DNA of 64,000 bases. It comes from Burkholderia diffusa. Lineage in GTDB: Bacteria > Pseudomonadota > Gammaproteobacteria > Burkholderiales > Burkholderiaceae. The notes beneath the pieces were generated by a model. It saw only the letters and a program-made list of their open reading frames with translations. It searched no databases and was not told the DNA's origin. Where the stretch lies: NCBI RefSeq assembly GCF_001718315.1, contig NZ_CP013363.1, positions 1,674,001-1,738,000 of the forward strand. Direction: 5' to 3'. Each line of letters opens with the position of its first letter. Position 1 is the stretch's first letter. Below, piece by piece: positions 3,203-23,199 of the stretch. Position numbers and translations under genes: made by a program.

Positions 3203-3991
3203 TTAGAAAAGTCCGACAGGCTGCGCCGCATCATCCCAACTAAAGATGATCAGCTCGTTCCGCTCGACGCCCTTCCCGCCCCCGACCGTGTACTGGATCG
3301 GCACGGTCTCGATATGAAACCCGTCGAACGCACGCCGAATATCCGGATGATCATTCAGGCTGACGATCGCCCGGCCCTTCAGCGATCGCAGACGCTGCGC
3401 CATCTTCTCGTACTCGCCGAACGGGAATGCCACGCCGTACCCCTCCGTCTCGTAATACGGAGGATCGAGGTAGAAGAGCGTATGCGGCCGATCGTAACGA
3501 TCGATACATGCAGCCCAATCCAGCCGCTCCACGAACGTATTCGCGAGCCGAAGGTGGGCCGCCGACAGTTCCTCCTCGATCCGCAACAGATTCAGGCCGG
3601 GCGGCGTCGTCGTCGCCGTTCCGAACGTCTGCCCTTCCAGCTTCGCCCCAAAGCAACTTTTCTGCAGGTAGTAGAACCGAGCCGCCCGCTGGATATCAGT
3701 GAGCGTTTCCGGGACCGTCTGCTTCAACCATTCGAACACCTGCCGGCTCGTCAACGCCCATTTGAACTGCCGCACGAACTCCTCCAGGTGATGCTGCACA
3801 ACGCGATACAGGTTGATCAGTTCGCCGTTCACATCGTTGATGACCTCGACCTTGGCCGGCGGACGCAGGAAATACAGCGCCGCTCCACCCGCGAATACCT
3901 CGACATAGCAGTCGTGCGCAGGGAAACGCGGAATGATGTGGTCTGCCAGACGACGTTTGCCGCCGATCCAAGGAATGATGGGATTTGCCAT
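3203..3991 (-). CDS. Phage Dam-like DNA N6-adenine methyltransferase
   Basis: The start is the ATG at 3991 (MANPIIPWIGGKRRLADHI), giving 262 residues. The WIGGKR and VEVFAGGAAL motifs form the SAM site and DPPYYETEGYG is the catalytic DPPY motif of class D12 adenine methylases. The enzyme should methylate adenine in a short duplex target, perhaps to hide phage DNA from host restriction. It is the last leftward gene of the prophage and is separated from the lysis genes by a terminator, so it is probably a separately transcribed accessory gene. No clear Shine-Dalgarno is visible. One copy of the late-region palindrome lies inside it at 3649. Confidence 0.9.
   Translation of the reverse strand: MANPIIPWIGGKRRLADHIIPRFPAHDCYVEVFAGGAALYFLRPPAKVEVINDVNGELINLYRVVQHHLEEFVRQFKWALTSRQVFEWLKQTVPETLTDIQRAARFYYLQKSCFGAKLEGQTFGTATTTPPGLNLLRIEEELSAAHLRLANTFVERLDWAACIDRYDRPHTLFYLDPPYYETEGYGVAFPFGEYEKMAQRLRSLKGRAIVSLNDHPDIRRAFDGFHIETVPIQYTVGGGKGVERNELIIFSWDDAAQPVGLF
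3649..3661. repeat. Late-region palindrome copy 1 (CAAAGCAACTTTT)
   Basis: Exact match to the core AAAGYNRCTTT, located inside the methylase gene. Confidence 0.6.
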
Positions 3992-4084
3992 TGTGAAAGC
4001 CGTTTTTAAACTTGGTGTAGAATCCGGCCCGCCTACCGGTAGGTAGCAGGGCCTTGGCCGATTCACTGGCATGCTCAGTGGAAA

Positions 4085-4123
4085 GGCGACCGGGGGCGTG
4101 TTGCTGCACGCTTCCCGGTCGCC
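4085..4123 (-). terminator. Hairpin between lysis genes and methylase
   Basis: Ten-base arms GGCGACCGGG and CCCGGTCGCC enclose a 19-base loop; the leftward transcript then reads TTTCC. It probably ends transcription of the lysis operon. A perfect 12-base palindrome (CCTACCGGTAGG) lies further left at 4032-4043 and may belong to the methylase promoter. Confidence 0.55.
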
Positions 4124-4160
4124 CTGTTTCTTTCGAGACCGCCCGGCCTCGATCGCCGCG

Positions 4161-4655
4161 CTACTGCGGCAAATTGGATTGCGCGTCGCCGATCAACGCG
4201 TCGTAACTACGCTCGCACTGCTGGCCGGCGATGCCCCGCTCGTCAGCGATCTTCGCCAGCTCTCCCGCGCGCTCGTCAGCCCGGCCGAACAAGTCGGCAA
4301 GCAGATTGAGGGCGTCGCCGGTTGCCGGGCTTCCGGCCGCAGCGCCGGCACGTCGAGCGTCGGCAACGAGCGCGGCGACCTGCTTGCGCAGCCCATCAGC
4401 AACACCATCGGCAACAGCAGCATCAGCGCGTGCCTGATCACGTTCTTTTGCAGCATCGGTTGCAACCTCCTGTTGCGCCGCCAATCGGCGGCCATATTCA
4501 TCCCGTTCATCGCGGAGATGGTCGATCTGCCGTGCCTGATCGGCGACCGTCGTGGACTGATCCGCATCCCGGTGCCCTTTCGAATAGCCAGCAGCAGCGC
4601 CGACCACGACGGCCGCGATAAGCGCGAGCCAGAGTCGAGGATCGAACCACGTCAT
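4161..4655 (-). CDS. Rz-like inner-membrane spanin (i-spanin)
   Basis: The start is the ATG at 4655, which overlaps the lysozyme stop as ATGA; the frame is open further upstream without family resemblance. The protein has 164 residues: an N-terminal membrane anchor (WLALIAAVVVGAAAGYS), then a long charged coiled coil (QARQIDHLRDERDEYGRRLA onwards). This is the Rz/DUF2514 design. With Rz1 it fuses inner and outer membranes in the last step of lysis. It is the third gene of the holin-lysozyme-spanin operon and contains the Rz1 gene in another frame. Confidence 0.8.
   Translation of the reverse strand: MTWFDPRLWLALIAAVVVGAAAGYSKGHRDADQSTTVADQARQIDHLRDERDEYGRRLAAQQEVATDAAKERDQARADAAVADGVADGLRKQVAALVADARRAGAAAGSPATGDALNLLADLFGRADERAGELAKIADERGIAGQQCERSYDALIGDAQSNLPQ
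4193..4456 (-). CDS. Rz1-like outer-membrane spanin lipoprotein embedded in Rz
   Basis: A second reading frame inside the Rz gene starts at ATG 4456 and gives 87 residues: MLQKNVIRHALMLLLPMV then the lipobox LLMGC, followed by a Pro- and Ser-rich mature chain. A short lipoprotein nested in an Rz gene in another frame is the classic Rz1 arrangement. It should be lipidated at the Cys and sit in the outer membrane, binding Rz across the periplasm. An internal Met at 4423 is an alternative start closer to the lipobox. Confidence 0.75.
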   Translation of the reverse strand: MLQKNVIRHALMLLLPMVLLMGCASRSPRSLPTLDVPALRPEARQPATPSICLPTCSAGLTSARESWRRSLTSGASPASSASVVTTR

Positions 4656-5071
4656 GCGCCGCTCCGCATCATCGATGCGAGGCGCTTCGCGCGATCGCCG
4701 ACCTGTCGCGCCCACAGGCTGTCGAGCATCTCGGCTGCCGCTGCGTTCCAGTCGCCCCGCTGCGTCGCCGCGAGAAACTTGCGGAACCCGAGCAACTTGC
4801 CCTGCATGTTGAACGCCATATTCATCATCACGCGCTGACGCACTGGATCGAGCGACGACCACCACGACAGATGGCGATCGAGCCATGCCTCGGTTTCGGC
4901 GATGTCGTTCTGGTACATCAGGTCGATCTCGTTATCGCGAAACCCCTTGTCCGTCAGATTGCGGCCGATCCCGCCCGACACCTTGCCGACCGTGTCGGTA
5001 TAGATCCGATACCGCCGGTCCTCATCGTGCGTCAGTTCGGCCTTCAGCTTCAACCCGTCGTACTTAGCCAT
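4652..5071 (-). CDS. Phage lysozyme (T4-type endolysin, GH24-like)
   Basis: The start is the ATG at 5071 with a strong GGAGGAAG site upstream, giving 139 residues. The segment THDEDRRYRIYTDTVGKVSG aligns with the T4 lysozyme active site: Glu17 and Asp26 are nine residues apart as in T4, with Ser32 at the usual Thr position. It hydrolyses peptidoglycan after the holin opens the membrane. There is no signal peptide or N-terminal anchor, so it is a canonical holin-dependent endolysin. It overlaps the holin gene by 8 bases and the Rz gene by 4. Confidence 0.85.
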   Translation of the reverse strand: MAKYDGLKLKAELTHDEDRRYRIYTDTVGKVSGGIGRNLTDKGFRDNEIDLMYQNDIAETEAWLDRHLSWWSSLDPVRQRVMMNMAFNMQGKLLGFRKFLAATQRGDWNAAAAEMLDSLWARQVGDRAKRLASMMRSGA

Positions 5072-5357
5072 TCTTGCTTCCTCCAAAAAGTTGCTTTGCC
5101 TTCTTACGCAGCAGTACCTCCAGGTACTGCGATCCGACGATGCCGAGCGTGCTCCCGATTCCGAGCAGCGCAATCGGCGGGAGGTCCGGGATCTGCAACA
5201 GCGCGATGCCCGCGACCATCGACGTCGCCGATCCCAGCACGGCCCGGCCAGCGACGAGCCGAAACGTCAAATGCTCGCTACCCACCAACACCTTCGCGAT
5301 CCCGATCAATCCGCCCATAACGATCAGCTCCAGAATCGTCTTTTCATGCTCTTGCAT
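5064..5357 (-). CDS. Phage holin
   Basis: The start is the ATG at 5357, preceded by AAGGGGAACCG. The protein has 97 residues with an acidic N-terminus (MQEHEKTILEL), two or three hydrophobic segments (IVMGGLIGIAKVLV, AVLGSATSMVAGIALL, IALLGIGSTLGIVGSQ) and a basic tail (RKKAKQLFGGSKNG). Size, topology and position directly before the lysozyme support a holin that forms the timed membrane lesion. The exact holin class cannot be fixed by eye. A copy of the late-region palindrome overlaps its 3' end. Confidence 0.8.
   Translation of the reverse strand: MQEHEKTILELIVMGGLIGIAKVLVGSEHLTFRLVAGRAVLGSATSMVAGIALLQIPDLPPIALLGIGSTLGIVGSQYLEVLLRKKAKQLFGGSKNG
5086..5098. repeat. Late-region palindrome copy 2 (AAAAGTTGCTTTG)
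   Basis: Exact match to AAAGYNRCTTT near the 3' end of the holin gene. Confidence 0.6.
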
Positions 5358-5383
5358 CGGTTCCCCTTGTCCCGATAAAAAGA

Positions 5384-5414
5384 AAGGCCGCTCCGGTTGC
5401 CCGTGAGCGGCCTT
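5384..5414 (-). terminator. Hairpin between tail gene D and holin
   Basis: Arms AAGGCCGCTC and GAGCGGCCTT are followed in the leftward direction by CTTTTTATC. It probably ends tail-operon transcription, which would give the lysis genes their own control or a reduced level. Confidence 0.7.
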
Positions 5415-5433
5415 CAATACGATGCGCGACGTT

Positions 5434-6483
5434 CTACTTCGGCGCCGGCACCACCAGATCGATCTTCTTGCCCTTCTTCTTCCCATGCCCGACCTTCGCT
5501 TTCCCCTTGTTCCCTCCGTTCAAAGTGACCACCGTGATCCATCCGCGTGATGCGTATGTGTGCTCGACCGACTCAATCAGAAACTCACCGTCTACGCCGG
5601 CCTTGAAACCCTTGAGCGCGATTGTCTTCTCCGCCGACAGATCTGCCCGGCCGCGCATCGTGAGCCGGCTCGTCGACGTGTGCCGATTGAGCGTCGTCAG
5701 TCGCGACGTCGCACCCGCTTTCGCGGCCTCCGGACTCGCGAATGCATGCCGTTCCGTATGCACCGCGGACGCACCTGGCGGAGCATCCGGATTCGGAATC
5801 GTCAGGTCGATCTTCTTCCCGGTCTTGCGGTCGTGCACCTTCGTGCGCACGGCCGCAAAGCTCGCGCGATCCGGGAAATTGATGTCGTAATCGAGCAGAT
5901 CGCCCGGCGTGAGCGTGACGACCGGCAGCGGCTTGCCGCTCGCGCTCTTGCCGCCGCCACGCGGCAACACGATCAGCTTCCCTGCTTTGACCGTCGCCGT
6001 CGCACCATACTGGCGAGCCACGCGCGTGATGAAATGCAGGTCGCTTTCGCCGAACTGGTCGATACGCGGCACGACGACGTCGACGTCGCACGCGGCCGAC
6101 CATTTGTTGCGACGCGCGACGTCGCCGACGATGTCGGCCAGCTTCGCATTCGACCAACTGCCGTAGCGCTGCGTCTTCGACGTCGCACGCATGTTCGCTG
6201 GCTTCCCACGGATCACGACGCTGGCCGGCGGGCCGCGCACGCCGACCTCGTCGACGGCGTACTCGCCGAGCATCGATAGTCCCTGCTCGTCCCATCCGAT
6301 CGACACCTTCAACGTCGCGCCCTTCGGCGGAAATTCGATGCGGCCGTCGCGATCGTCGAGCGTGATCGTGCACTCGTCGGCGTCTAGACCGGGTTTGTCG
6401 ACCGCCCGGATCTCCAGCACGCGATCCTGTATCACCTTGGTCACGTCCGAGCCGTTCGCGACCACCTGAAAAATCGCTTCCAT
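5434..6483 (-). CDS. Tail hub protein gpD (P2 late control D family)
   Basis: This 349-residue protein resembles P2 gpD and T4 gp27 hub proteins: an N-terminal beta domain (VLEIRAVDKPGLDADECTI), a central region (SDLHFITRVARQYGATATVK) and a C-terminal domain (FLIESVEHTYASRGWITVV). It forms the ring joining the central spike to the tail tube. The Lys-rich C-terminus (GKKKGKKIDL) is unusual. It is the last structural gene of the tail operon, directly after gpX and gpU, as in P2. Confidence 0.85.
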   Translation of the reverse strand: MEAIFQVVANGSDVTKVIQDRVLEIRAVDKPGLDADECTITLDDRDGRIEFPPKGATLKVSIGWDEQGLSMLGEYAVDEVGVRGPPASVVIRGKPANMRATSKTQRYGSWSNAKLADIVGDVARRNKWSAACDVDVVVPRIDQFGESDLHFITRVARQYGATATVKAGKLIVLPRGGGKSASGKPLPVVTLTPGDLLDYDINFPDRASFAAVRTKVHDRKTGKKIDLTIPNPDAPPGASAVHTERHAFASPEAAKAGATSRLTTLNRHTSTSRLTMRGRADLSAEKTIALKGFKAGVDGEFLIESVEHTYASRGWITVVTLNGGNKGKAKVGHGKKKGKKIDLVVPAPK

Positions 6484-6492
6484 CGCACCTCG

Positions 6493-6699
6493 CTATGTCC
6501 AGAGCTGGACCGATTCAACACGCGGCGCATCGAGATCCGGCAGCAAGATCTCGACGCCGGCCGGGAACGGCTGCGGCCGAGCCGCCAGCCCCGGATTCGC
6601 GTCGTACACGGCCTCGACCGTGCCCTGCAACGTCCCGTAGTACCGAAAGCAGAGCGTGTCGAGCACGTCGCCGTCAGACGTTCTTAAAGTCTTCGCCAT
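6493..6699 (-). CDS. Tail protein gpX (LysM-like)
   Basis: The start is the ATG at 6699 (MAKTLRTSDGDVLDTLC), giving 68 residues. The small LysM-like fold with LCFRYYGTLQGTVEAVYDAN and PFPAGVEILLPDL is typical of gpX, a baseplate or tail-tip component of P2-like tails. It overlaps the end of gpU by 26 bases and lies 9 bases before gpD. Confidence 0.85.
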   Translation of the reverse strand: MAKTLRTSDGDVLDTLCFRYYGTLQGTVEAVYDANPGLAARPQPFPAGVEILLPDLDAPRVESVQLWT

Positions 6700-7552
6700 A
6701 GCGGCCGAACTCCACCGAGAATGTTTGCTTGCGCGGCAAGCCGTCCACGAGCAGCGCATCCTGCTCCTCCTCAATCGACTGCAGCAGCCACCGGCCGAGC
6801 ACGTCGCCGTCGCCCGTCGTGAGCTGCACGGGCTTCATGCGCCCGCCAATCTCGCGCAGGCGGTGGATCTGCTTCGTGCCGGCCCCGAGCGCCGGAAACA
6901 CGACGCCCGACAGCGTGATCGTCTCGCCGCCTTCGCTGACTGGCTGCAGCGCCTCCTGCCGATTCAGACGCTCCTGCGACGCAACGCGATAACGCGTCGC
7001 CCGCCGGAGCTTGTCGTATGCGGCCGTCGACAAGTTGAAGTGGAACGCATCACCCGCTTCGCTCGTCATCGACATCAGGTGCGGCGTGCTCGACGTCGCC
7101 CCGCCGACCAACCCGGACAGCATCGAACCGACGCCCGTCGACTGAATCACATTGAGCACCGCCGAGTCCTTGATACCGACCGCCGCGTTGAACTGATTCC
7201 ACGCCCCGCCGAGCGCCGACTTCACGCTGTCGGCGGCAGCCCGCACAAGGGGGAAATTCGACCCGTCGACGGCCTTCAGAATCGAGCCGATCGACGCCTG
7301 CGTCGCGTTGAAGCTGCGCAGCACCGTGCCGACCTGCGGAAACAGATCGCCGGCCAGCGAGATCGCACCGCTCGCGCCGGTCAGCAGCTCGGCCGCGCTG
7401 CTCAGATTGCCGGTCGCGAGTCGCTGCAGCGCGTCGACCGTCGACATGCTCGCCGCGCGATTCCGGTCGAAAATGCGGACCATCTGGCGCACGCGTTCGG
7501 TCGCAATCCCCGCCTGCGTCGCCGCGCCTGTGATCTGTCGAATCACATCCAT
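6674..7552 (-). CDS. Tail completion protein with C-terminal gpU domain
   Basis: The protein has 292 residues, whereas P2 gpU has about 160. The C-terminal 130 residues (ETITLSGVVFPALGAGTKQI, GDVLGRWLLQSIEEEQDALL, KQTFSVEFGRYG) match the gpU fold that caps or completes the tail tube. Residues 1 to about 155 form an extra helical Ala/Gly-rich region. It lies between the tape measure and gpX genes. I take the extension as genuine because the frame is open with consistent codon use and a start 11 bases from the tape-measure stop. Confidence 0.8.
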   Translation of the reverse strand: MDVIRQITGAATQAGIATERVRQMVRIFDRNRAASMSTVDALQRLATGNLSSAAELLTGASGAISLAGDLFPQVGTVLRSFNATQASIGSILKAVDGSNFPLVRAAADSVKSALGGAWNQFNAAVGIKDSAVLNVIQSTGVGSMLSGLVGGATSSTPHLMSMTSEAGDAFHFNLSTAAYDKLRRATRYRVASQERLNRQEALQPVSEGGETITLSGVVFPALGAGTKQIHRLREIGGRMKPVQLTTGDGDVLGRWLLQSIEEEQDALLVDGLPRKQTFSVEFGRYGEDFKNV

Positions 7553-7562
7553 TGCACCTCCC

Positions 7563-10001: not shown

Positions 10002-10020
10002 ATCGGCCCCTTCAGTCCCT

Positions 10021-10393: not shown

Positions 10394-10412
10394 TGCGGTT
10401 CCTGAAATGAAA

Positions 10413-10437
10413 AATGGCGAGCCGCCGGCTCGCCATT
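10413..10437 (-). terminator. Hairpin between tube gene and gpE
   Basis: Arms AATGGCGAGCC and GGCTCGCCATT enclose a 3-base loop, followed leftward by TTTCATTTC. It probably attenuates transcription after the abundant tube protein. Confidence 0.65.
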
Positions 10438-10444
10438 GATTGAA

Positions 10445-10457
10445 TAAAGTAACTTTG
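10445..10457. repeat. Late-region palindrome copy 3 (TAAAGTAACTTTG)
   Basis: Exact match to AAAGYNRCTTT in the short intergenic region between the tube and gpE genes. Confidence 0.6.
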
Positions 10458-11007: not shown

Positions 11008-12177
11008 TTAGATCTGGTTATCGAGCACTTCGGTCAGCCACTGGTTCGTGACCTCGAAGCGGAAAATCGGGTTCTCGGCCGGCGGGACATCCGTGAATCG
11101 GATGTTCCAGTACACCTTGCCGTCTTCGAGCTGGCTCGCCGTGTTCAGCTGCGGGTCCGGGTAGACCTCGAAATTGATCACTGCGCCCTGACGTTTCAGG
11201 TCACGCATGAATGCCTGCAGACCCTCGGTCACGTCACTGACGTACGTCGCCGTGATGCCACGGTCGACCGCCCACTTGTGGCCGGCCTGCACCGCATCCA
11301 TGACGATGTCGAGCGTGCGCACGCGCGTGACGAACTTCCATTTCGGATCGGCCGACAGCGTGCGGTTGCCCCACAGGCGAAAGCCGCCGTCACGAATGAT
11401 CGTCGCGATGTTCGCGTTGTTGAGCAGGTTCGCGCGGCACGTCTCGTCGCCGTCGAGATATTCGATCGGCCGGCCCGTGCCCGTGATCTCGACGACCTCC
11501 TTGTTCGACGGCGACGCCCAGAAACCGATCTTCGCGTCGGTCTGGCAGAACAGCCCCGCTGCGTACGTCGACGCCGGCAGCGAGATCTCGCCGTTCGTCG
11601 CGTTGTCCCACGCCTTCGCGCCGGGGTCAACCATGTACAGGCGCTTGCTGCCGAAATTCTTCGCGTACGCAATCGCCGCAGCATCGTCGCTGTTCGGGCC
11701 ATCGATCACCGCGACCGCGCGCAGCTTGCCGGCCAGCGAATCAGCGGCTGTTGCGACCGGTTGCTTCGACGTATGACCCGGCGCGATCAGCAGACGCGGC
11801 TGCGTGTTGAAAAGCGACTTTGCGTCGAGCAGCGCTTGCATGCCGGTGCGGGCACCGCCAGCGGTGACACCGCCCACAATCGCGGACGTGAGCTGCGCCG
11901 CGTCGGTGACGGATGCGACGCCGACCGCAACGACGACCGCACTGCTCTGCGCGTAGATCGCACGCGCCGAGCGGGCGATCGCGCTCTTTTCGCCGAACGC
12001 CCGCACCGCGTCGCCGTAGCTCGTCAGTTGAACCGGCACATTCGGCTGCGCCAGACCCGCGCCAGGCGTGTAGGTGTCGGTCAGGCCGACGACCGACGAC
12101 GACGGCACCGCAATCGTGCGCGGGCCGCTGTCGACGATGGTCGTCGTGATACCGTGAAAAAACGAAGTCGCTGCCAT
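11008..12177 (-). CDS. Tail sheath protein (gpFI)
   Basis: The start is the ATG at 12177 (MAATSFFHGITTTIVDSGPR), giving 389 residues. The segments VVGLTDTYTPGAG, LLIAPGHTSKQPVATAADS and GFRLWGNRTLSADPKWKFV are hallmarks of contractile sheath subunits. It forms the outer contracting cylinder. Hairpins follow both flanking transcription units. A copy of the late-region palindrome lies in the gene at 11810. Confidence 0.92.
   Translation of the reverse strand: MAATSFFHGITTTIVDSGPRTIAVPSSSVVGLTDTYTPGAGLAQPNVPVQLTSYGDAVRAFGEKSAIARSARAIYAQSSAVVVAVGVASVTDAAQLTSAIVGGVTAGGARTGMQALLDAKSLFNTQPRLLIAPGHTSKQPVATAADSLAGKLRAVAVIDGPNSDDAAAIAYAKNFGSKRLYMVDPGAKAWDNATNGEISLPASTYAAGLFCQTDAKIGFWASPSNKEVVEITGTGRPIEYLDGDETCRANLLNNANIATIIRDGGFRLWGNRTLSADPKWKFVTRVRTLDIVMDAVQAGHKWAVDRGITATYVSDVTEGLQAFMRDLKRQGAVINFEVYPDPQLNTASQLEDGKVYWNIRFTDVPPAENPIFRFEVTNQWLTEVLDNQI
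11810..11822. repeat. Late-region palindrome copy 4 (AAAAGCGACTTTG)
   Basis: Exact match to AAAGYNRCTTT inside the sheath gene. Confidence 0.55.
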
Positions 12178-12250: not shown

Positions 12251-12263
12251 GAAAGTTACTTTG
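12251..12263. repeat. Late-region palindrome copy 5 (GAAAGTTACTTTG)
   Basis: Exact match to AAAGYNRCTTT. It overlaps the TAA stop of the tail fibre chaperone gene (read leftward as AAG TAA CTT). Confidence 0.6.
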
Positions 12264-13017
12264 CGTCGACCTCGGTGGGCGGCTCGCTATCGCTCGCGCT
12301 GTCACCGTCAGCGGGCACCGCGGATTCCGCCTCAGGAGGTGTCTCGCCCGCCTCATTGCGATGCGCGGCCTCCTCCTCGCGCCGAGCGGCTTCCTCGGCC
12401 TCACGTGCAGCCTTCTCCGCCCGCTGCGCCTCGACCTTGGCGAGCAACGCTGCAGGGTCCGGCTCGGCCGGCCATACAACGTCGTTCGGAAAAGTCGGCG
12501 AATCGACCACGCCGACAAGGGCCACCTGATACGCGGCCCACGCGTCGAACGTCGCCGACTCGAGATCCGACAGCAAACCCGTCACACGCGCGTCCGACTT
12601 CCCGAGATTCTGCTGACGCGCTTTTTCCATGCGCGCGTAGAAGTCCGCCATCGCTGCTTCACGTACGCGTTCCGCGACGACTTCCTCGTCGAGCACCCAA
12701 GCGCCATCTTTCCAGAAGTATTCGTCGGACGGACGCGGTACATCCGTCAATCCCGCGTCGTCGGGCGTAACACCCGCGACCGTGATCTCACCCGGCTCAC
12801 CCGTATCGGTTCGATACAGTCGGACACCGCGATAGTCCGGCTGCATCTTCCATTTGCCGTCCTGCCAGAACGGCCAGGAACGCGTCGGCACTTCCGGCAG
12901 AGGCGTGAGCGTGCAGAATGCCGGCACGAGATAGCGACTCGCGTCCATCGGGTCGCGTTCCGCGAGAAAGCTCGCGATGTAGCGCCCGGTTTGATTGTCG
13001 TATTGATTGCAAAGCAT
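12256..13017 (-). CDS. Tail fibre assembly chaperone-like protein
   Basis: The protein has 253 residues. The first part (YLVPAFCTLTPLPEVPTRSW, then FWQDGKWKMQPDYRGVRLYR and FWKDGAWVLDEE) resembles tail fibre assembly (Tfa-like) proteins with repeated W-x-DG-x-W units. From about residue 195 it becomes a charged Glu/Ala/Arg coiled coil (AEKAAREAEEAARREEEAAH) and an acidic disordered tail. It follows the fibre gene by 16 bases, the usual place for a fibre chaperone. The long acidic tail is not typical of short Tfa proteins. Confidence 0.65.
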   Translation of the reverse strand: MLCNQYDNQTGRYIASFLAERDPMDASRYLVPAFCTLTPLPEVPTRSWPFWQDGKWKMQPDYRGVRLYRTDTGEPGEITVAGVTPDDAGLTDVPRPSDEYFWKDGAWVLDEEVVAERVREAAMADFYARMEKARQQNLGKSDARVTGLLSDLESATFDAWAAYQVALVGVVDSPTFPNDVVWPAEPDPAALLAKVEAQRAEKAAREAEEAARREEEAAHRNEAGETPPEAESAVPADGDSASDSEPPTEVDAK

Positions 13018-13033: not shown

Positions 13034-15088
13034 TTAGTAAGCCCGAATCATCGCGAGTAGCGCGATGTTGCGCGGACGGCTTTCGTTGCCACCGTCAGCC
13101 GCGACGCTGATCGTGTGCGAGTGGGCGCCGGCCCCGCCGATTCCGACGTTGTGGCCGTGCGCACCGGACCCTTCAATGCCAATCGCGATCGTCGCGCCAT
13201 CGGTGCCGAGATTGTTGGCGCGACCGTTATCCATCCCGTAGCCACGGCCGGTCGAGGTCGAATACGCTCCGTTCGATCCAAGACCGAAGCCGTGCGCGTG
13301 CGGCTGCTGACTGACGTTGTGACCGTGCCAACCCTGTGAATCGGTCCATGCGCTGTGGGAGTGATCGCCCACGGCGGCGGCAGATGCGCCGTGCGCATGC
13401 GAGCGGTTCAAGCTGTCCTGCCAGCTCCCGATCTGGCGCTGCGCATCGGCACCGCGCGCGTCATCCCAGCAGCGGATAAACTCGCCGCGAAGATCCGGCA
13501 GTCGGAACGTTGTATTGCCGTCTCCGGTTGAAAAGCAACCGTGCCGCCCCTTGCCCCAGTCCGCATCTGCGACGATTGCTCCGCTCGCCTGCGCGTACGC
13601 CCACAGCAGCGGGTAGTCCGTCCGCTTCAGCTCGGTGCCGTTCAGCTTCAGGAATCCCGCACGCGGCGCAGTTCGGGCCTCCCACACGATCTGCCCGATC
13701 TGGACATTGGCGACGGCCGCCGCAAACCACGCCGACGTGATCAGCTTGTCCGAGTTGTCGCCAGCGGGAGGTGCAGTCGCCGTCACCGTGCCACCGACCC
13801 GAAGCATCGACGAGCCGTCGTCAGCGACCTCACCGATCAGCAACCGCCCAGCCTGATTCAGCATCATCTTCGTCTTACCGAGGATGTTGAATCCGATCCC
13901 GAGTCGTCCGCCGGTCGGCGCGGTGTTATTCGCGTCGGTCGTCGAGTTCAAATACAAGATCTTGCCGGCCGCCGTCTGCGAGTACGCATCGATGTAGTTG
14001 TCGATCACGCCACCGGGTCCATCCGGTGCAGCGCCGATACCGATGTACTGAGCTGCATTTCCGGTTCGATACGCCACAACGGCGTAACCGGTCGCATCCG
14101 CGACCACCTGAAGCCGTCCCGTCTCCCGATCTGCCGCCGACGTGCCGACGATCATGTTCCCCGTTTGCCCGATCTGCGCTCGCGTGATGTCGAGAATCGT
14201 GAACCGAATACCGAGCGCACCGTTCGTCGGAGCCGTGTTTGCGGCGTCTGTCGACGCAGCAATGATCAGCGACTTGGCCGCCCCCGGATCGGAATAGCTC
14301 GCGAGCGTGTTGTCTTTCGGGTTGTTGCCGACACCCGCAGCCGCACCGAGCGCCAGATACTGCGCACCGATATCAGGCCGCCTCGCGGCGATGGCATAGC
14401 CTGTCGCGGGATTCTGGACGAGCATTGTGCTGGAACCGTCATCCGCCGCTTCGCCGATCAACCATCGCCCCTCCGCCGTGATGCGGCCGCGCTCGGTCTT
14501 GCCGGCGATGAACGACAGCCACCCGGCCGCGCCGAGCGTCAGATTGTTGGACAGCATCACGACGTACGGTACGCCCTGCGCACCGAGCTGCAGGTGTCCG
14601 TCTGCCGGCGAAAACATCCCCGTGTCGGGATCTCCGTCAAACGCGAAGCCTGCATTGTTGGTGTTGTGCGGTGTGATTGCACCGACCTTCCCGAGCAGCT
14701 TACCCTTCAGTGCATCGCCGGCCTTGGAAACCTTGTCGTTGCCGAGATCACCGATCTTCTTGTCAGCCGCATCAGCGCGCGTGCCGAGGTCTGCGACCTT
14801 CTTGTCGGCCACATCGGCGCGCGTCCCGAGATCGGCGACCTTCTTGTCCGTCGCATCCGCACGCGTCCCGAGGTCGGCGACCTTCCTGTCCGTCGCGTCC
14901 GCCCGCGTCCCAAGTCCCAAAGCAACTTTGTCGGCCGCATCCGCTCGGTCCTTGAGGTAGCGCGTGCGGTTTCCAAGCTGCCTGATTGCGATGTTGTCGA
15001 CCCCGTCCGGGCCACCCAGCACTTGATCCGACGTCTCGAACTGTCGAATTCCCGGCTCCCACTTACTCTCTTCCTTCAAATCGGCCAT
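13034..15088 (-). CDS. Tail fibre protein with collar domain
   Basis: The protein has 684 residues. The start MADLKEESKWEPGIRQFETS is the typical fibre N-terminus that docks to the baseplate. Residues 59-114 are four tandem 14-residue repeats. The middle has repeated modules containing GEVADDGSS or GEAADDGSS and TDA(A/N)NTAPT, probably beta-helical shaft. The segment FLKLNGTELKRTDYPLLWAY and the RLPDLRGEFIRCWDDARG motif form the collar domain; the His/Gly-rich C-terminus is the likely receptor-binding tip. It determines host range. It overlaps gpI by 13 bases. Confidence 0.88.
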   Translation of the reverse strand: MADLKEESKWEPGIRQFETSDQVLGGPDGVDNIAIRQLGNRTRYLKDRADAADKVALGLGTRADATDRKVADLGTRADATDKKVADLGTRADVADKKVADLGTRADAADKKIGDLGNDKVSKAGDALKGKLLGKVGAITPHNTNNAGFAFDGDPDTGMFSPADGHLQLGAQGVPYVVMLSNNLTLGAAGWLSFIAGKTERGRITAEGRWLIGEAADDGSSTMLVQNPATGYAIAARRPDIGAQYLALGAAAGVGNNPKDNTLASYSDPGAAKSLIIAASTDAANTAPTNGALGIRFTILDITRAQIGQTGNMIVGTSAADRETGRLQVVADATGYAVVAYRTGNAAQYIGIGAAPDGPGGVIDNYIDAYSQTAAGKILYLNSTTDANNTAPTGGRLGIGFNILGKTKMMLNQAGRLLIGEVADDGSSMLRVGGTVTATAPPAGDNSDKLITSAWFAAAVANVQIGQIVWEARTAPRAGFLKLNGTELKRTDYPLLWAYAQASGAIVADADWGKGRHGCFSTGDGNTTFRLPDLRGEFIRCWDDARGADAQRQIGSWQDSLNRSHAHGASAAAVGDHSHSAWTDSQGWHGHNVSQQPHAHGFGLGSNGAYSTSTGRGYGMDNGRANNLGTDGATIAIGIEGSGAHGHNVGIGGAGAHSHTISVAADGGNESRPRNIALLAMIRAY
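14747..14914 (-). repeat. Four tandem 42-base repeats in the tail fibre gene
   Basis: These encode four 14-residue units of the form LGTRADATDKKVAD (residues 59-114). The heptad-compatible pattern predicts a trimeric coiled-coil stalk. In-frame loss or gain of units would change stalk length without breaking the protein. Confidence 0.85.
14918..14930. repeat. Late-region palindrome copy 6 (CAAAGCAACTTTG)
   Basis: Perfect 13-base match apart from the centre, beside the 42-base repeats of the tail fibre gene. Confidence 0.6.
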
Positions 15089-15654: not shown

Positions 15655-16540
15655 CGGCCACCTTTGGATTGAGTACGATCGACGTGCAACGCGCGAACTG
15701 GTCGATCGCGCATACGACGTCGGCGGCAGGTGCCTTCAAATCGACGCGCACGACACCCGACGCTTTGGGATGCAGCGCTCCCGTCACCGCCGATCGGGGC
15801 ATGCCGACGCGCAACGCTTCGCCTGCGGCGACCGCGATATCCAGATCCTGCCGACGTGCGGCGATCACGACACCCGGATCCGGTCCCCGCCCGACATACA
15901 CGTCGGCGACGATCGAGTAATTGACGGGGCGGGCCGCGACGACCAGCAGCGTGTCGTTCAGCGGTCGACGGTCTTCCGGCGAGAGTGCGCGGCGCACCGT
16001 GTCGAGCAATGCCGCACTCGCCACGCCACCGTTCGAATACGATTTCACGACCACGCGCACCACACCGCCCTCAGGGCGATCGACGCGCACGTCGGCAACG
16101 TCCGGCGACGCGTCCATCGCGAGCGATCGATACGCGCCAAACGGGCCGGCCGTCGACGATCGCTCGATCCCCATCTGGGTGCGCAATCGCAGGCGATCGT
16201 CGCGCTCGCGCGTCGCTGGAACCGGCGGATGTGCTTCCGGGTCGCCGGGATCGATGACTTCGCGCTGCAAATTCCAGAGCACCGCGAGGTGTTCCAGATC
16301 AGCACCCGTTGCGTAGGCCAGCAACACCGCTCTACCGGCGTCATTCACGCGCGCCTGAAACCGCATTTCTTCGTACGCGGCCAATTCCAGCAGTTTCACG
16401 ACCGGATCGGATTCAAGCGCAGCCGACCAATCCGGATAGATGCGCTTGAAGTGCGCGAGCTTGCGCTGATACGCTTCCTCGAAATCCAGCGTTTCGACGA
16501 GATCAGGCGGATCAAGCGCCGACAGATCGATTACTGTCAT
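15644..16540 (-). CDS. Baseplate assembly protein gpJ
   Basis: The protein has 298 residues. It starts MTVIDLSALDPPDLVETLDF, and the segments ARVNDAGRAVLLAYATGADL and HLAVLWNLQREVIDPGDPEA are typical of the P2 gpJ/T4 gp6-like wedge family. It forms the baseplate ring around the hub. It overlaps the gpW stop by 4 bases. Confidence 0.9.
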   Translation of the reverse strand: MTVIDLSALDPPDLVETLDFEEAYQRKLAHFKRIYPDWSAALESDPVVKLLELAAYEEMRFQARVNDAGRAVLLAYATGADLEHLAVLWNLQREVIDPGDPEAHPPVPATRERDDRLRLRTQMGIERSSTAGPFGAYRSLAMDASPDVADVRVDRPEGGVVRVVVKSYSNGGVASAALLDTVRRALSPEDRRPLNDTLLVVAARPVNYSIVADVYVGRGPDPGVVIAARRQDLDIAVAAGEALRVGMPRSAVTGALHPKASGVVRVDLKAPAADVVCAIDQFARCTSIVLNPKVADDD

Positions 16541-16875
16541 GTCGTCACCTCGAATACAACGTCGTCGCCGTTGTACTGCCCGGCGATTCGAAAAGTTACT
16601 TTGCCGTCCACGACAGACAGCACGTTCACGCGATCCAGCTCGAGGCGCGGCTCCCAGCGGACGATTGCGCGCGCAGATTCAGCCTGCGCCGCCGAGATCC
16701 AGCCGCGCGTGATAGGCATGTCGACCATCGCCGGGAGATCCGAACCGTACTCGGGACGCTCGCGCCGCGTTCCTTTGCGCGTGCCGAGAATGTCCGCAAC
16801 GCTCTGCACAAGATGCTCGATGCCGCCGATCAATCGGCCTGTGCGGCGACACATACCGACCAGCGCGACCATCAC
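16537..16875 (-). CDS. Baseplate wedge protein gpW (gp25-like)
   Basis: The protein has 112 residues. The segments HLVQSVADILGTRKGTRRER and PEYGSDLPAMVDMPI followed by IVRWEPRLEL are the core of the GPW/gp25 lysozyme-fold family, an essential wedge component that nucleates sheath assembly. It overlaps the genes on both sides by 4 bases. A palindrome copy lies inside it at 16591. Confidence 0.9.
   Translation of the reverse strand: MMVALVGMCRRTGRLIGGIEHLVQSVADILGTRKGTRRERPEYGSDLPAMVDMPITRGWISAAQAESARAIVRWEPRLELDRVNVLSVVDGKVTFRIAGQYNGDDVVFEVTT
16591..16603. repeat. Late-region palindrome copy 7 (AAAAGTTACTTTG)
   Basis: Exact match to AAAGYNRCTTT inside the gpW gene. Confidence 0.6.
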
Positions 16876-17072
16876 TGCACCTGCACATCAACGCGCTTGA
16901 AGTCCGCGCGAGAGTCGAGATATTTGATGTGCTGCGGCTCCGTTACAGTTGCCTTGCCCGCCAGCACGGCGATGTGCGAACCATCGGGAAACACAACGAT
17001 TCGGCTGTGAAACTCGGTATCGATGAACGTCACGGGGACCGTGCCGCTACCTTGCCGTGCGTCTTTCGCCAT
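16872..17072 (-). CDS. Small phage protein of unknown function between gpV and gpW
   Basis: The start is the ATG at 17072 (MAKDARQGSGTVPVTFIDTE), giving 66 residues. The preceding CCACCTCC on the plus strand reads leftward as GGAGGTGG, a strong ribosome site. The composition suggests a compact beta-rich protein with a Lys/Arg C-terminus. The stop overlaps gpW by 4 bases, so it belongs to the baseplate operon. I do not recognise a named family. Confidence 0.7.
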   Translation of the reverse strand: MAKDARQGSGTVPVTFIDTEFHSRIVVFPDGSHIAVLAGKATVTEPQHIKYLDSRADFKRVDVQVQ

Positions 17073-17092
17073 AACCACCTCCACAAACGAAA

Positions 17093-17112
17093 GACCCCGC
17101 ACGCGCGGGGTC
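17093..17112 (-). terminator. Hairpin after the gpV gene
   Basis: Arms GACCCCGC and GCGGGGTC are followed leftward by TTTCGTTTG. It lies between gpV and the next small gene, next to a palindrome copy. Confidence 0.65.
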
Positions 17113-17125
17113 CAAAGTCACTTTG
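17113..17125. repeat. Late-region palindrome copy 8 (CAAAGTCACTTTG)
   Basis: Perfect dyad with a single central base, intergenic, directly next to the hairpin at 17093-17112. Confidence 0.6.
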
Positions 17126-17131
17126 AATTGA

Positions 17132-17812: not shown

Positions 17813-17815
17813 CGG

Positions 17816-18860: not shown

Positions 18861-18862
18861 CG

Positions 18863-19153
18863 TCACCTCAGAATCAGGATCGTCCAGCCCGTCCCATCGG
18901 GGTGCAGCTCGAACACGCGGTAACGCCCGCTCGGCGTCACGACGATGCTGCCCTCGGTCACGTCGACCGCATCGGCATCGGTGATATGCAGGACGGGCGC
19001 CACGAGCTGCGTGCGCTGCGTTCCGAGATCCGGACCGAGCCACGGCGACGTGAACATCCCGTCGACGGGCCGGCCGTCGATCGTGATGTCCGCGTCACCG
19101 AGATCGCGCAGCACTGCCGCATCGACGTCCGCGATCAGATCCCGGAACGCCAT
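18863..19153 (-). CDS. Head-tail joining protein, lambda gpFII-like
   Basis: The protein has 96 residues. It starts MAFRDLIADVDAAVLRDLGD and ends PSGRYRVFELHPDGTGWTIL. The length, the early Asp-rich helix and the beta-rich C-terminus fit the FII/phage attachment family that connects the filled head to the tail. It follows the capsid gene directly, as in lambda. Confidence 0.65.
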   Translation of the reverse strand: MAFRDLIADVDAAVLRDLGDADITIDGRPVDGMFTSPWLGPDLGTQRTQLVAPVLHITDADAVDVTEGSIVVTPSGRYRVFELHPDGTGWTILILR

Positions 19154-19154
19154 A

Positions 19155-20150
19155 TCACGCCTTCAGCTTGACGATCGCCTTCGGGCGCGTGCACAGGTGC
19201 ACCGGGTTCGATTGCGCCTCGAGGTCAACGCCCTTGCCGAACTGCGCCAGTTCCTGCTTCGCGTAGTACGGCAGGCCCGTCGTGTTCACTGCTTCGACGT
19301 AGTCAGCCGGCGCGAAGCGCGTAATGAACAGCTCCGGCACGCCTTCGGGCACCGCATACGCTTCGTCGTCCGCCACATAGCCGATGTCGCCGACGCGACC
19401 GCGATAGCGCTCGAACGTGCAACCGCCGAAGTCGAATGCATCGCGCGCGTCGCCCCGGAGAGACGCCGCCATCGCGGTCGCGAGATACGTCTCCTTCACT
19501 GTCTTCGCGACGATCAGCTTGTTCCAGAATGCCCGGCCGCAAAGCACGCGCACGCCCGTGTACGTCGTCGCGCCCAGCGCATCTTCGATCGCGTCCTGCA
19601 CGTCGACGCACTTCACGCGGATCTCCGTGTCAGCCTTGCCCAGCTCGAACGGAATCACGGTCTGCTCGATGCCGAAGTACTGCAGAAGATCGATCAGCAC
19701 CGTCTTGCCGTCTGCGTCGAGCACCGCGCCCTTGATCGCGCCGATGCGGTGAAACTCGTGCGTCGCGTCGAGCTGGCGACGCAGTTTCGCGAGCCGCCGG
19801 TTCACGACCGTCTGCAACGCTTCCAGCTCCGTTTCGGAGCCGAACGCGCGCAGGTTCTGGATCTCGTCGGCCTTCACGAATGCACGCTGCGGCAAGTGCA
19901 CCGTATTGAACGGAATCATGCTGCGCTTGCTGCCGACCACGATCGCCGACGGCGAGCCGCGCTCACCGGCCGAGACGAGGGACAGTGTGTCGCCGTCGCG
20001 CTCGATCTGGATCGTCGTCGTGGTGATGCCGTCCTCTTCGAACAGGCCGAGCGCACCGACGCGGCCCGGCACGTGCGGCTGGTCGTTGATCGCTGCGGTG
20101 AGCGACGACAGCGAGAACGCGTCATCTTGAAACAGGGCGATGTCCGCCAT
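19155..20150 (-). CDS. Major capsid protein, lambda gpE family
   Basis: The protein has 331 residues. FEEDGITTTTIQIERDGDTL, AFVKADEIQNLRAFGSETEL and PYYAKQELAQFGKGVDLEAQ are characteristic of the lambda gpE group of HK97-fold capsid proteins. It builds the icosahedral head. It follows the decoration protein gene and a hairpin, which should help set the high expression of both. Confidence 0.92.
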   Translation of the reverse strand: MADIALFQDDAFSLSSLTAAINDQPHVPGRVGALGLFEEDGITTTTIQIERDGDTLSLVSAGERGSPSAIVVGSKRSMIPFNTVHLPQRAFVKADEIQNLRAFGSETELEALQTVVNRRLAKLRRQLDATHEFHRIGAIKGAVLDADGKTVLIDLLQYFGIEQTVIPFELGKADTEIRVKCVDVQDAIEDALGATTYTGVRVLCGRAFWNKLIVAKTVKETYLATAMAASLRGDARDAFDFGGCTFERYRGRVGDIGYVADDEAYAVPEGVPELFITRFAPADYVEAVNTTGLPYYAKQELAQFGKGVDLEAQSNPVHLCTRPKAIVKLKA

Positions 20151-20180
20151 ACAACCTCCAACAGGGAAATGGATACAAAA

Positions 20181-20205
20181 AAGGCCACGCGCGATGCGTG
20201 GCCTT
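20181..20205 (-). terminator. Hairpin between decoration and capsid genes
   Basis: Arms AAGGCCACGC and GCGTGGCCTT are followed leftward by TTTTGTATCC. It lies between gpD-like and gpE-like genes and may act as an attenuator or RNA stabiliser. Confidence 0.65.
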
Positions 20206-20225
20206 CGGATTCGGTGTTGCTGCGA

Positions 20226-20570
20226 TCAGCGGACGATCACATGGCGTTCCGCGAGATCGGTGCGCGCTGCGGCATTCAGACCAGTCAGGCGTGCGGCGGC
20301 GACCTCGGCGAGTCGCACAATGCCGGTCGCCGAGCGCGGTGCCTCGGACGCTGCCAGCGGTGCATACAGCACCGCCGCAGCGACTTCGGCCCCGTCGTTC
20401 GCCGCGTTGTCGTACGGCGCATACTCGCCGGTGCTCGTCACCCCGAGCACCTGGCCGGCCGACAGCGCCGGCCCGGCCTTCACGATGATGTGCTCGCGCG
20501 AGATCTGCCCGTTGCCTTCCGACACCAGAAATTCCGCCGTCTGGCTGCCCTGTACCTTCACGTTCGACAT
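20226..20570 (-). CDS. Head decoration protein, lambda gpD family
   Basis: The protein has 114 residues. SREHIIVKAGPALSAGQVLG, then TGEYAPYDNAANDGAEVAAA, are typical of gpD-like trimers that stabilise the expanded capsid. Its position between the protease and major capsid protein matches the lambda gene order. Confidence 0.9.
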   Translation of the reverse strand: MSNVKVQGSQTAEFLVSEGNGQISREHIIVKAGPALSAGQVLGVTSTGEYAPYDNAANDGAEVAAAVLYAPLAASEAPRSATGIVRLAEVAAARLTGLNAAARTDLAERHVIVR

Positions 20571-20595
20571 GAGTTTTCCCCTCCTCGGGTATCGT

Positions 20596-20607
20596 CAAAG
20601 TTACTTG
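20596..20607. repeat. Late-region palindrome copy 9, imperfect (CAAAGTTACTTG)
   Basis: One base short of the AAAGYNRCTTT core. It overlaps the TAA stop of the head protease gene (read leftward as AAG TAA CTT), like copy 5. Confidence 0.45.
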
Positions 20608-21710
20608 CCGCTCTTGCGAGCCGCGTAGATGGACGCCGCGCGCGGCGCATTCGCCACCACCGGCGGCTCGTTTTGCACTACCGGCTGCGCACGCGGATTG
20701 ATGCGCGATTGCGACGCCGTCACGCGCTCGAACAGTCGCGCGCGTACGTGATCCGGCGTCAGACCGTCAGCGACGAATTGCGCGGTCAGCTCCGGCACGT
20801 TCGCCGCAAGGCAAATCCCGGCGATGTCGGCGGCTTGCCGGATCGCCGCATCGACCGTTGCCCGGTCCTTTAGGCCGGTCGCCGTCACGATCGCCTCCGC
20901 GCAGTGCGACAGGCGCGCGTCACGGCAGGCCGCGAATACGTGCGACGCCAGCGCCGAGACATCCGGGGCTGGCGGCACCAGCTGCGGGTCGGGTTTGGTT
21001 TCCGGTTCGGGATCGGGCCGCGGCTCGGGCGGTGTATCCGGTGGCGTGTCGGGCTGCGGCGGGTCGGTCGGCTCCGTTTCGTCGACCAGCGCCCGCACAA
21101 CGTCGGGTACCGCCGAGAAGCGCGCGAGCAGCGCCGTCGAGCTGGCCGACGCGGACAGCTTCACTGCTGCCTCGATCGTGTCGCAGAAACCCTTTTCCTT
21201 CGCCTGCGCGGCCGTCAGCCACGTCTCGGCGTCCATCAATGCCCGGATCTCGTCGACCGACTGGCCACTCTTCGCCGCGTACGCGGCGAGAATCCCGTCG
21301 CCTGCGTTGTCGAGCAAATCGGCAATGCGCCGCAGGTCTTTCGCCTCGCCCGCCGTCACCGTTTGCGCGTTGTGGATCATCAACATCGCGTTTTCCGGCA
21401 TCACGATCTCGTCGCCGGCCATCGCGATCAGCGATGCGGCCGATGCCGCAATGCCGTCGACCCGCACCTTCACCTTGCCCGCATGCCGACGCAACGCGTT
21501 GTAGATCGCGAACGCATCGAACACATCACCGCCCATCGAGTTGATCGCGACCACGATCGCCGATGCGTTGGCCGCTGCGGCATCGAGCTGCGTCACGAAC
21601 GTCTGTGCGTCGGTGCCCCAGAAGCCGATCTCGTTGTAGATCCGGATCTCGACCTCGCCGGCCGCGTTCGCCTGCGCCCGGATATCCCACCACTTACGAT
21701 TGCGTTTCAT
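20601..21710 (-). CDS. ClpP-like head maturation protease with scaffold-like C-terminus
   Basis: The start is the ATG at 21710 (MKRNRKWWDIRAQANAAGEV), giving 369 residues. The N-terminal 190 residues are a ClpP/SppA-type fold with INSMGGDVFDAFAIYN, the catalytic Ser in VDGIAASAASLIAM and the catalytic His in MLMIHNAQTV. A Pro/Asp-rich linker (about 210-250) leads to an Ala-rich helical C-terminus that probably acts as the scaffold, as in lambda C/Nu3. The enzyme should cleave itself and scaffold during head maturation. It begins 1 base after the portal stop. Confidence 0.88.
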   Translation of the reverse strand: MKRNRKWWDIRAQANAAGEVEIRIYNEIGFWGTDAQTFVTQLDAAAANASAIVVAINSMGGDVFDAFAIYNALRRHAGKVKVRVDGIAASAASLIAMAGDEIVMPENAMLMIHNAQTVTAGEAKDLRRIADLLDNAGDGILAAYAAKSGQSVDEIRALMDAETWLTAAQAKEKGFCDTIEAAVKLSASASSTALLARFSAVPDVVRALVDETEPTDPPQPDTPPDTPPEPRPDPEPETKPDPQLVPPAPDVSALASHVFAACRDARLSHCAEAIVTATGLKDRATVDAAIRQAADIAGICLAANVPELTAQFVADGLTPDHVRARLFERVTASQSRINPRAQPVVQNEPPVVANAPRAASIYAARKSGK

Positions 21711-21711
21711 C

Positions 21712-23199
21712 TCACTCCCCATTCGTGTGCGCGAGCGGATCGGTGTCGTCCGTCGCGTGCGTGTCGTACTGCAACCCGAGCCGTTGCGCGCGCTGCTGAT
21801 CGGCCGCGTTCTCGTCGTCGACCTGCTCCGGATCCTCGCCCTTCGCGAGAATCGCGCCGGTGCGACTGGTCAGCCCCGCCCGAATCTCCGCGCGCTTGGC
21901 CGACACGTCCTGCACCGGATGGATATACGGCCAGCCCTGCGGCACCCACCGCACGCGCACGTACTCGCGCCGGGCGCGGTGATAGTTCGGCATCGGCATC
22001 GCACCGGACAGCGCACAGGCGTCGACCCACCAGGACCAGATCCGCCGACAGAACTGATGGATGAACACGTTCTGCTGCAGCTGCTCGATCGAGCGCCGGA
22101 ACTCGTTCAGCAGTACGCGCAGGACACGGTCGCTGACATCGCGCAGATCGCCCGTCAGCACCTCATAGGGCATGCCGACCGACGCGGCTGCGGCCATCAG
22201 CTGCTGTCGCATGAACGGCGCGTAATCGGCTCCCGCGCCGGGCGGCGTTGCGAACTTCACGTCCTCACCGGGCGCCAGTTCCTGCATTGCGCCCGGTTCC
22301 AGCGACACCACCGGTGAGAACCCGTCGACGTCGAATTCGATCGTCGCCCCGGAGACCGGATCGCCGAGCGGGCCGACCTCCGCCTGCGGCTTCACGATGA
22401 AGCCGGCAAAAAGGTTGCTCACCTCCTGCCGGAACAGCACCGCGTCGTCGAAGTTGTCGAGCGAATGCAGCCGCAGCAGCACCGTCGACAGCTCCGGCAC
22501 GCCACGCACCTGACCGGGCCGCAGCGCGTGGAAGACGTGCGCGATCTCGTCGGCCGGCACGCGCACCGTCTGCACCGCATCGCCAGCGAACCGGTTGTAC
22601 TCACCCGGATGCCGGCGCAGCAGGTGATACGCGACGCGCTCGCCGTCTTCGTTGAACTCGACACCGTTGATGATCTCGCCGCCTGGAATCGGCTCGTTCT
22701 TCGTGACCGGCAGCATGTCGCCCTCGAAGAGCTGGATCTGCATCGGCACCGCCAGCCCGGTATGCAGCGGGAGTAGACGGCGACGCACCAGCACCTCGCC
22801 GTCGCTGAAGAACGCCCGCGCTGCGAGCGTCTGCAAGCCGTACAAATCATGGTCGCCGTTCGGGTCCAGCTCGCCCGAGCTGTCGTCCCAAAGTTGCTTT
22901 TGCGCGCGACGCACGTCCGCGTCTGGATGCTGCGGATGCGCCTGAATACCGGTACCGATGGTGTTCGACACCAGGCGCGCGATCGCCGTCTTCGCCCACG
23001 GGTCGTTACGGATCGCGTCCCGTGCACGGTGACGCATCAGCGGCAGGTTCTGCACGACCGAAGCGTTCGGCCCCGCGCTCGATGCCTGCCACGACTTTGC
23101 CCGCGCCCCGCGCGTGCCGGCCGATTCGTACGCCGCTGCTTTCAGCCGCGTGGGGACGACAAAGCCGCGCTGCGCGAGAACCGGATACGCGCGACTCAT
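21712..23199 (-). CDS. Portal protein, lambda gpB family
   Basis: The protein has 495 residues. RDAIRNDPWAKTAIARLVSN, FLFAGFIVKPQ-like segments, LEPGAMQELAPGEDVKFATP and MPYEVLTGDLRDVSDRVLRV are typical of lambda-type portals. Twelve copies form the DNA entry ring at one capsid vertex. It overlaps the gpW-like gene by 4 bases. Copy 10 of the palindrome lies in it. Confidence 0.92.
   Translation of the reverse strand: MSRAYPVLAQRGFVVPTRLKAAAYESAGTRGARAKSWQASSAGPNASVVQNLPLMRHRARDAIRNDPWAKTAIARLVSNTIGTGIQAHPQHPDADVRRAQKQLWDDSSGELDPNGDHDLYGLQTLAARAFFSDGEVLVRRRLLPLHTGLAVPMQIQLFEGDMLPVTKNEPIPGGEIINGVEFNEDGERVAYHLLRRHPGEYNRFAGDAVQTVRVPADEIAHVFHALRPGQVRGVPELSTVLLRLHSLDNFDDAVLFRQEVSNLFAGFIVKPQAEVGPLGDPVSGATIEFDVDGFSPVVSLEPGAMQELAPGEDVKFATPPGAGADYAPFMRQQLMAAAASVGMPYEVLTGDLRDVSDRVLRVLLNEFRRSIEQLQQNVFIHQFCRRIWSWWVDACALSGAMPMPNYHRARREYVRVRWVPQGWPYIHPVQDVSAKRAEIRAGLTSRTGAILAKGEDPEQVDDENAADQQRAQRLGLQYDTHATDDTDPLAHTNGE
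22889..22901. repeat. Late-region palindrome copy 10 (CAAAGTTGCTTTT)
   Basis: Exact match to AAAGYNRCTTT inside the portal gene. Confidence 0.6.

Follow-up and report, generated by a model that had tools for sequence, protein, structure and literature searches.

The palindrome AAAGYNRCTTT recurs through the late region of a prophage in Burkholderia diffusa (contig NZ_CP013363.1, positions 1,674,001 to 1,738,000; this whole 64-kb stretch is called the window, and positions are counted from its first base). Our comparisons indicate that AAAGYNRCTTT, in its full form cAAAGTNACTTTg, is probably the loading site of ParBlong, an orphan ParB-type clamp that would coat the genomes of the phages encoding it, and that the sites in the window would be an orphaned set.

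Occurrence and conservation of the motif

A pattern search found nine exact copies of AAAGYNRCTTT, all within 3650-22900, and the rest of the window was empty. This agrees with a first-pass annotation of the window, which had described nine exact copies and one near copy in the late region and no exact copy outside it, although each start position is higher by one than the number given there. The annotation had also judged the array to be far above chance, and 100 dinucleotide-preserving shuffles of the window bore this out, giving a mean of 0.09 copies per 64 kb and 2 at most. The 6.86-Mb genome holds 16 exact copies, nine being those of the prophage and seven lying in the remaining 6.8 Mb or so, and a similar density elsewhere was not found; the pattern read backwards occurs 32 times in the same genome. 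One exact copy outside the prophage (C3:749867-749877) has a ParB-like gene (C3:750699-751121) about 0.8 kb away, probably by chance. Across 21 phage records that carry ParBlong, the consensus extends to the 13-bp palindrome cAAAGTNACTTTg.

The ten sites of the window, listed without strand, are as follows. "Intact" gives the share of homologous stretches that keep the site.

3650..3660: AAAGCAACTTT, in the DNA methyltransferase gene; intact 12/12, core changes 0/120 against 219/1653 in the flanks
5087..5097: AAAGTTGCTTT, lysis region; intact 4/7, core kept no better than the flanks
10446..10456: AAAGTAACTTT, intergenic, adjoining a terminator-like hairpin; intact 8/9
11811..11821: AAAGCGACTTT, in the tail sheath gene; apparent gain in this lineage, intact 1/17
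12252..12262: AAAGTTACTTT, overlapping the stop codon that ends the tail fibre assembly gene; intact 11/11, core changes 0/110
14919..14929: AAAGCAACTTT, in the tail fibre gene; apparent gain in this lineage, intact 0/16
16592..16602: AAAGTTACTTT, in a small baseplate gene (ORF 16537-16875); intact 33/74
17114..17124: AAAGTCACTTT, intergenic, adjoining a terminator-like hairpin; intact 16/16, core changes 2/160
20597..20607: variant AAAGTTACTTG, overlapping the stop codon that ends the head protease gene; core changes 3/480 in 48 stretches
22890..22900: AAAGTTGCTTT, in the portal gene; intact 71/81, core changes 34/810, codons nearly fixed

For each site we compared distinct homologous stretches, counting identical ones once, and scored changes in the core bases against those in the flanks. 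The results showed that the flanks at 3650, 12252, 17114, 20597 and 22890 change by 12-24%, while the cores at these sites change far less. Several site cores are under selection. The near copy AAAGTTACTTG, confirmed at 20597, is not a decayed site, because its core is almost unchanged while its flanks carry 747/6305 changes, and because its variant class is overrepresented among related phages (4.92 versus 0.81 per 100 kb). Among the homologous stretches compared, core conservation was absent at 5087, 11811 and 14919 and slight at 16592. From these alignments 11811 and 14919 look like gains, and such gains fit a motif of some importance better than one retained by chance.

In the portal gene, with identical stretches again counted once, the codons of the site are nearly fixed (CAA 78/85, AAG 84/85, CAA 71/82, CTT 77/86), whereas a single codon reaches 90% or more at 59 of the 302 other conserved-residue positions. 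Free synonymous variation in relatives, which the first-pass annotation had named as evidence against a function, was therefore not seen at the portal site; the site at 16592 does vary.

Five sites lie well inside listed genes and two span the stop codons of minus-strand ORFs (12252-12262 in ORF 12256-13017; 20597-20607 in ORF 20601-21722), and the earlier observation of two overlapped stops was correct. The suggestion that the copies are recombination linkers between modules was not supported, since seven of ten sites lie in genes or over stops, the sites of relatives are evenly spaced, and five cores are kept while their flanks diverge. The two intergenic sites directly adjoin GC-rich terminator-like hairpins (10400-10456 and 17090-17124), as do several intergenic sites in relatives.

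ParBlong accompanies the motif

Phages rich in the motif encode a 476-aa ParB-like protein, termed ParBlong (phrog_1033, E 4e-72). The same early module contains a 124-aa phrog_9889 protein, a CII-like protein and a VapE-type primase. Residues 30-244 of ParBlong, covering an N-terminal part and a helix-turn-helix, are modelled as a ParB/KorB/Noc fold. We collected the best 80 loci from each of two scans (in one, the best 80 of 113) and reduced them to 100 distinct genes; the comparison used the central 300 bases, and alignments had to span 150 residues or more. Among these listed matches, 2-8 motif copies were present near all 100 distinct ParBlong genes, in stretches of up to 10 kb on each side.

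Prophages of relatives have the motif at the same positions as the window, and they also have it in their early half, where they and the window differ. The 30 records searched contained 10-13 copies in 11 cases, 3-8 in five, one in three and none in 11; phage KS9 has no copy and BgVeeders33 has one. In total, 21 ParBlong records held 207 exact copies in 854 kb, compared with one copy in 246 kb of seven control records; some of the 21 include host flanks, nine were covered to base 40,000 (G006, G007, G008, G014, G035, G038, G039, G040 and G044), and control G012 was covered to base 20,000. Late genes are not decisive for the motif, because four records (G037-G040) combine ParBlong with foreign late modules (large terminase subunit TerL 28-30% identical, and undetected in G039) and still have 10-11 copies across the record. 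Repressor and Cro belong to unrelated types across ParBlong loci, while the motif is constant. No ParA partner was seen in the annotations read, which were not searched systematically, and two of them list an "ATPase" beside parB.

We assessed spacing using the exact motif together with its outer-C variant. The variation of gaps was below the random mean in 21/21 ParBlong records, with P below 0.05 in 16; the records are related, and these P values hold record by record, not jointly. The 228 gaps had a median of 2832 bases, and eight were shorter than 600 bases. In one relative (G021), a site lies 29 bases ahead of the primase start and another in the leader of the ParBlong operon. The same phage has a site inside the ParBlong gene (L124:516-526); the encoded K-Q-L-L is strongly conserved in the family, perhaps owing to the DNA site.

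Repressor operators are different palindromes

The switch region of the prophage contains the following features.

31229..31290, listed without strand: three repressor-operator-like palindromes (OR) of TAGCGnnnCGCnA type at 31229, 31254 and 31278, unlike the motif in sequence
31304..31702, plus strand: transcriptional repressor gene (phrog_12107, E 3e-52)
32145..32182, listed without strand: two repressor-operator-like palindromes (OL) of TAGCGnnnCGCnA type at 32145 and 32170

In relatives, a listing read by eye showed, at 15/21 loci, a type-specific palindrome that is present both close to cI-cro and 0.3-1.4 kb upstream of the phrog_9889 gene; the other six loci were unclear. Examples are TTAGGCTTTCCTAA, AGTCATATTTGGCT and ATCCATTAATGGAT, and none of them is the dispersed motif. 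The window has the same layout, using TAGCGnnnCGCnA. These operators change with the repressor type and the motif does not. A promoter-like sequence overlaps the operators of G021 (2 matches versus 0.9 in shuffles). In phage lambda, the N operon lies behind OL. The position of the ParBlong operon behind OL-like sites suggests, by this analogy, that it is made early in lytic growth.

The prophage is a mosaic with its own, shorter ParB-like protein

The early half of the prophage is KS9-like (identities: ParB-like protein 89%, repressor 78%, CII-like protein 62%, DnaB 57%), and its late half consists of contractile-tail virion genes common to many Burkholderiaceae prophages. By sequence, the prophage is a mosaic in which a late module of the ParBlong group is joined to a KS9-type early region. 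It encodes one ParB-like protein of its own.

33132..33956, plus strand: 274-aa ParB-like gene of the short type (phrog_1033, E 6e-53)

The first-pass annotation had proposed the phage ParB-like protein as a possible reader of the sites. The family was well chosen; the protein was not, as the motif follows the 476-aa ParBlong. The 274-aa protein is probably not the reader: eight loci with its close relatives were collected and, leaving out a fragment (L409), the seven records hold 0, 0, 1, 2, 0, 1 and 0 copies. No comparable array was found in KS9 and five enteric or Stenotrophomonas phages that carry relatives of the 274-aa protein. This protein also has a different recognition helix.

Judging from sequence comparison, the ten sites of the window probably arrived together with the late module and are orphans. 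Four more such combinations (G031-G034) have no ParB match and four late sites each, with one extra upstream site in G033. Putative cognate palindromes on the same replicon, as in ParB-parS systems, were found in ParBlong phages in the form of co-occurrence; the window has the palindromes without ParBlong. In the case of G032 and G034, ParBlong lies on another contig that shares their source number (L200/L340 and L216/L339), suggesting double lysogens; if a shared source number means one genome, ParBlong could act in trans there.

Distant ParB relatives in isolated phages

At a threshold of E 1e-5, 232 of 50,697 isolate records contained a ParBlong match, and every match covered less than 80% of the protein. 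For palindrome analysis we used 11 of these isolates plus Serratia phage Eta, chosen from a paper, and nine controls, six of them with a short ParB. An open-ended palindrome scan gave a strong hit in a control (G030, CCGG-8-CCGG 20 times versus 2.7 expected, P 1e-11). We therefore relied on a restricted test of every 9-bp palindrome whose middle base is free (256 words in all), applied to stretches of 29-50 kb and corrected for 256 words per phage.

The results showed a significant dispersed palindrome in 8/12 isolates and 0/9 controls. AAGTNACTT was significant in BcepNazgul, R16L and Vibrio phage 1.070.O, CAATNATTG in the related phages KA2-1 and ECOO78, AACTNAGTT in AH2, TTATNATAA in pIS4-A and AAATNATTT in PPpW-3. 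The inner T-N-A of the window motif is common to the palindromes of all eight isolates. The full BcepNazgul genome has 18 copies of GAAGTNACTTC, one lying 141 bases ahead of parB and one just behind it, and R16L has 23 copies in 50 kb. The weaker cases among the eight were pIS4-A (8 copies), ECOO78 (7), AH2 (5) and PPpW-3 (4). Spacing was even in Vibrio phage 1.070.O (P 0.004) and R16L (P 0.016). In the restricted test R16L also gave the GC-rich CGCC-N-GGCG (2.5e-4). AH2 (L414) has five GACAC-9-GTGTC palindromes (5954, 6647, 8416, 10994 and 12976), mostly in TTTGACAC context, which resemble operators or promoters used by a different regulator.

The motif was absent from U5 and PS3, which have related primases and no annotated ParB, and the phrog_9889 protein had no match in any isolate, though several isolates have palindromes. 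For these two reasons, ParB appears to be the best common factor of the palindrome-bearing phages. Phage Eta has a ParB-like protein without ParA, and no parS was found for it, as stated in the available part of PMC3918226; we had predicted a palindrome in this phage, and the prediction failed.

Proposed mechanism and alternative explanations

In the mechanism that we favour, a large group of temperate phages in Burkholderiaceae would produce ParBlong from a repressor-controlled PL operon. Two subunits, one per half-site, would bind through the helix-turn-helix. The analogy with ParB and KorB suggests that the protein would next form a closed, nucleotide-dependent clamp and slide away from the site. 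With about 8-14 sites roughly 2-3 kb apart, the whole phage chromosome would be coated during lytic growth. We infer binding, clamp formation and coating, as well as the lytic timing, the last from operator position. The KorB sliding clamp acts up to 1.5 kb away, according to the available part of PMC11790492, and the gaps would be about twice the reach of such a clamp, as whole-chromosome coating would need. Even spacing and intragenic sites point to a role in coating, organising or protecting the phage DNA; the sites ahead of the primase and in the ParBlong leader would also allow regulation.

Several results weigh against ParBlong as a genome-coating reader. Spacing was not clearly even in 5/21 ParBlong records, nor in BcepNazgul (P 0.13), KA2-1 (0.085) or ECOO78 (0.235). 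The 9-bp test found no palindrome in 4/12 isolates (STGO-35-1, Mano, 8P and Eta), and correcting also for 21 phages leaves six of the eight, with ECOO78 and pIS4-A dropping out. ParBlong was not found in the genome of the window, in a direct search that proves little alone; the four phrog_1033 matches there are the prophage's own protein and one on each of three contigs (frames of 276, 318, 369 and 356 aa). We had expected fewer sites where ParBlong is lost, but no erosion was seen: G031-G034 each keep four late sites, the number also present in the ParBlong-bearing G035. Gene clustering of 26 motif records and 13 others gave the CII-like protein as the sole clean cluster in 26/26, yet this protein is also present in KS9 and BgVeeders33; a second cluster was a merged one of 568 ORFs, and the ParB family was present in 22/26 (not in G031-G034), with the short type in 6/13 others. 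Finally, phrog_9889, CII and the primase nearly always accompany ParBlong in the temperate group.

ParBlong might instead bind the same sites locally as dispersed operators, tuning early and late transcription without spreading. The two G021 sites, the terminator-like hairpins beside 10446 and 17114, and the repression of promoters by KorB (PMC11790492, in the part available) would suit such a role, but seven of ten window sites lie in genes or over stops and even spacing is unexpected for promoter-bound operators; we regard this explanation as rather unlikely. The first-pass annotation had also raised dispersed repressor sites like the stoperators of mycobacteriophage L5. The dispersion of the copies over a prophage does resemble the L5 and SPbeta systems, as the accessible portions of PMC9283540 and PMC10516654 describe them. 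The motif is not a repressor stoperator site, however, because the operators are other palindromes in relatives and in the window, and because repressor types are swapped while the motif stays. Immunity-repressor binding is thus the least probable of the explanations considered, and we give it almost no weight.

Another product of the early module could read the sites, namely the phrog_9889 protein, the CII-like activator or the VapE-type primase, which might use them for priming or assembly. Their near-constant company with ParBlong in the temperate group and the presence of the CII-like protein in all 26 motif records clustered speak for such a reader, and even spacing could suit replication. 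The primase is opposed by U5 and PS3, the phrog_9889 protein by its lack of a match in isolates with palindromes, and CII by KS9 and BgVeeders33 and by locus L250 (on the same contig as L372), which has ParBlong, phrog_9889, VapE and three motif copies but no CII match. Together these candidates are improbable. A host DNA-binding protein exploited by the phages would explain why sites persist where ParBlong was not found (the window and G031-G034), but the genome outside the prophage shows no enrichment and phages without ParBlong have 0-2 copies, which makes a host reader more improbable still.

Whether the ParBlong reading extends to other phages is less certain. We tentatively suggest, at somewhat less than even confidence, that unrelated phage families share a genome-marking system made of an orphan ParB-type clamp and short, lineage-specific, odd-centred palindromes with inner T-N-A, placed every 2-3 kb along the entire phage chromosome. 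If so, every replicated phage copy would be coated, organised or distinguished from host DNA, and many phage ParB-like proteins without ParA or known parS would gain a role.

Relation to known systems

Orphan ParB-like proteins are common in phages, as reported in the part of PMC12704722 available; with a predicted site and measured spacing for one family, what they do becomes directly testable. The comparisons supply the motif and its counterparts in several phage lineages, repressor and late genes that were exchanged in nature, and a recombinant prophage whose sites are orphaned. Should the sites load clamps, the phage chromosome would be organised by evenly spaced parS-like sites. Such arrays were not described for phages in the literature searched, which mostly did not extend to subscription papers, and the accessible part of a paper comparing AH2 and BcepNazgul has no word starting with repeat, palindrom or ParB (PMC3483164).

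The ParBlong phages resemble chromosomal ParB-parS and Noc-NBS systems in the predicted fold of residues 30-244. The sites in those systems cluster near the origin, whereas the ParBlong sites are many and dispersed, and no ParA appears in the annotations read. A parS site is 16 bp long, compared with the odd-centred 13-bp motif of the phages. Phage Eta likewise has a ParB-like protein without ParA, but showed no such palindrome in the 9-bp scan. KorB-OB of plasmid RK2 shares the ParB-family fold and dispersed odd-centred palindromes (OB core TTTAGCGGCTAAA; PMC11790492, available part), but differs in sequence and in belonging to a plasmid rather than a phage; no KorA-like partner was identified here, and the phage sites tile the whole genome evenly. 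The L5 stoperators and the SPbeta SPBRE are likewise one short site in many copies across a temperate phage genome. Those sites are read by an immunity or master repressor, as set out in the portions available of PMC9283540 and PMC10516654, whereas the operators of the phages studied here are other sequences.

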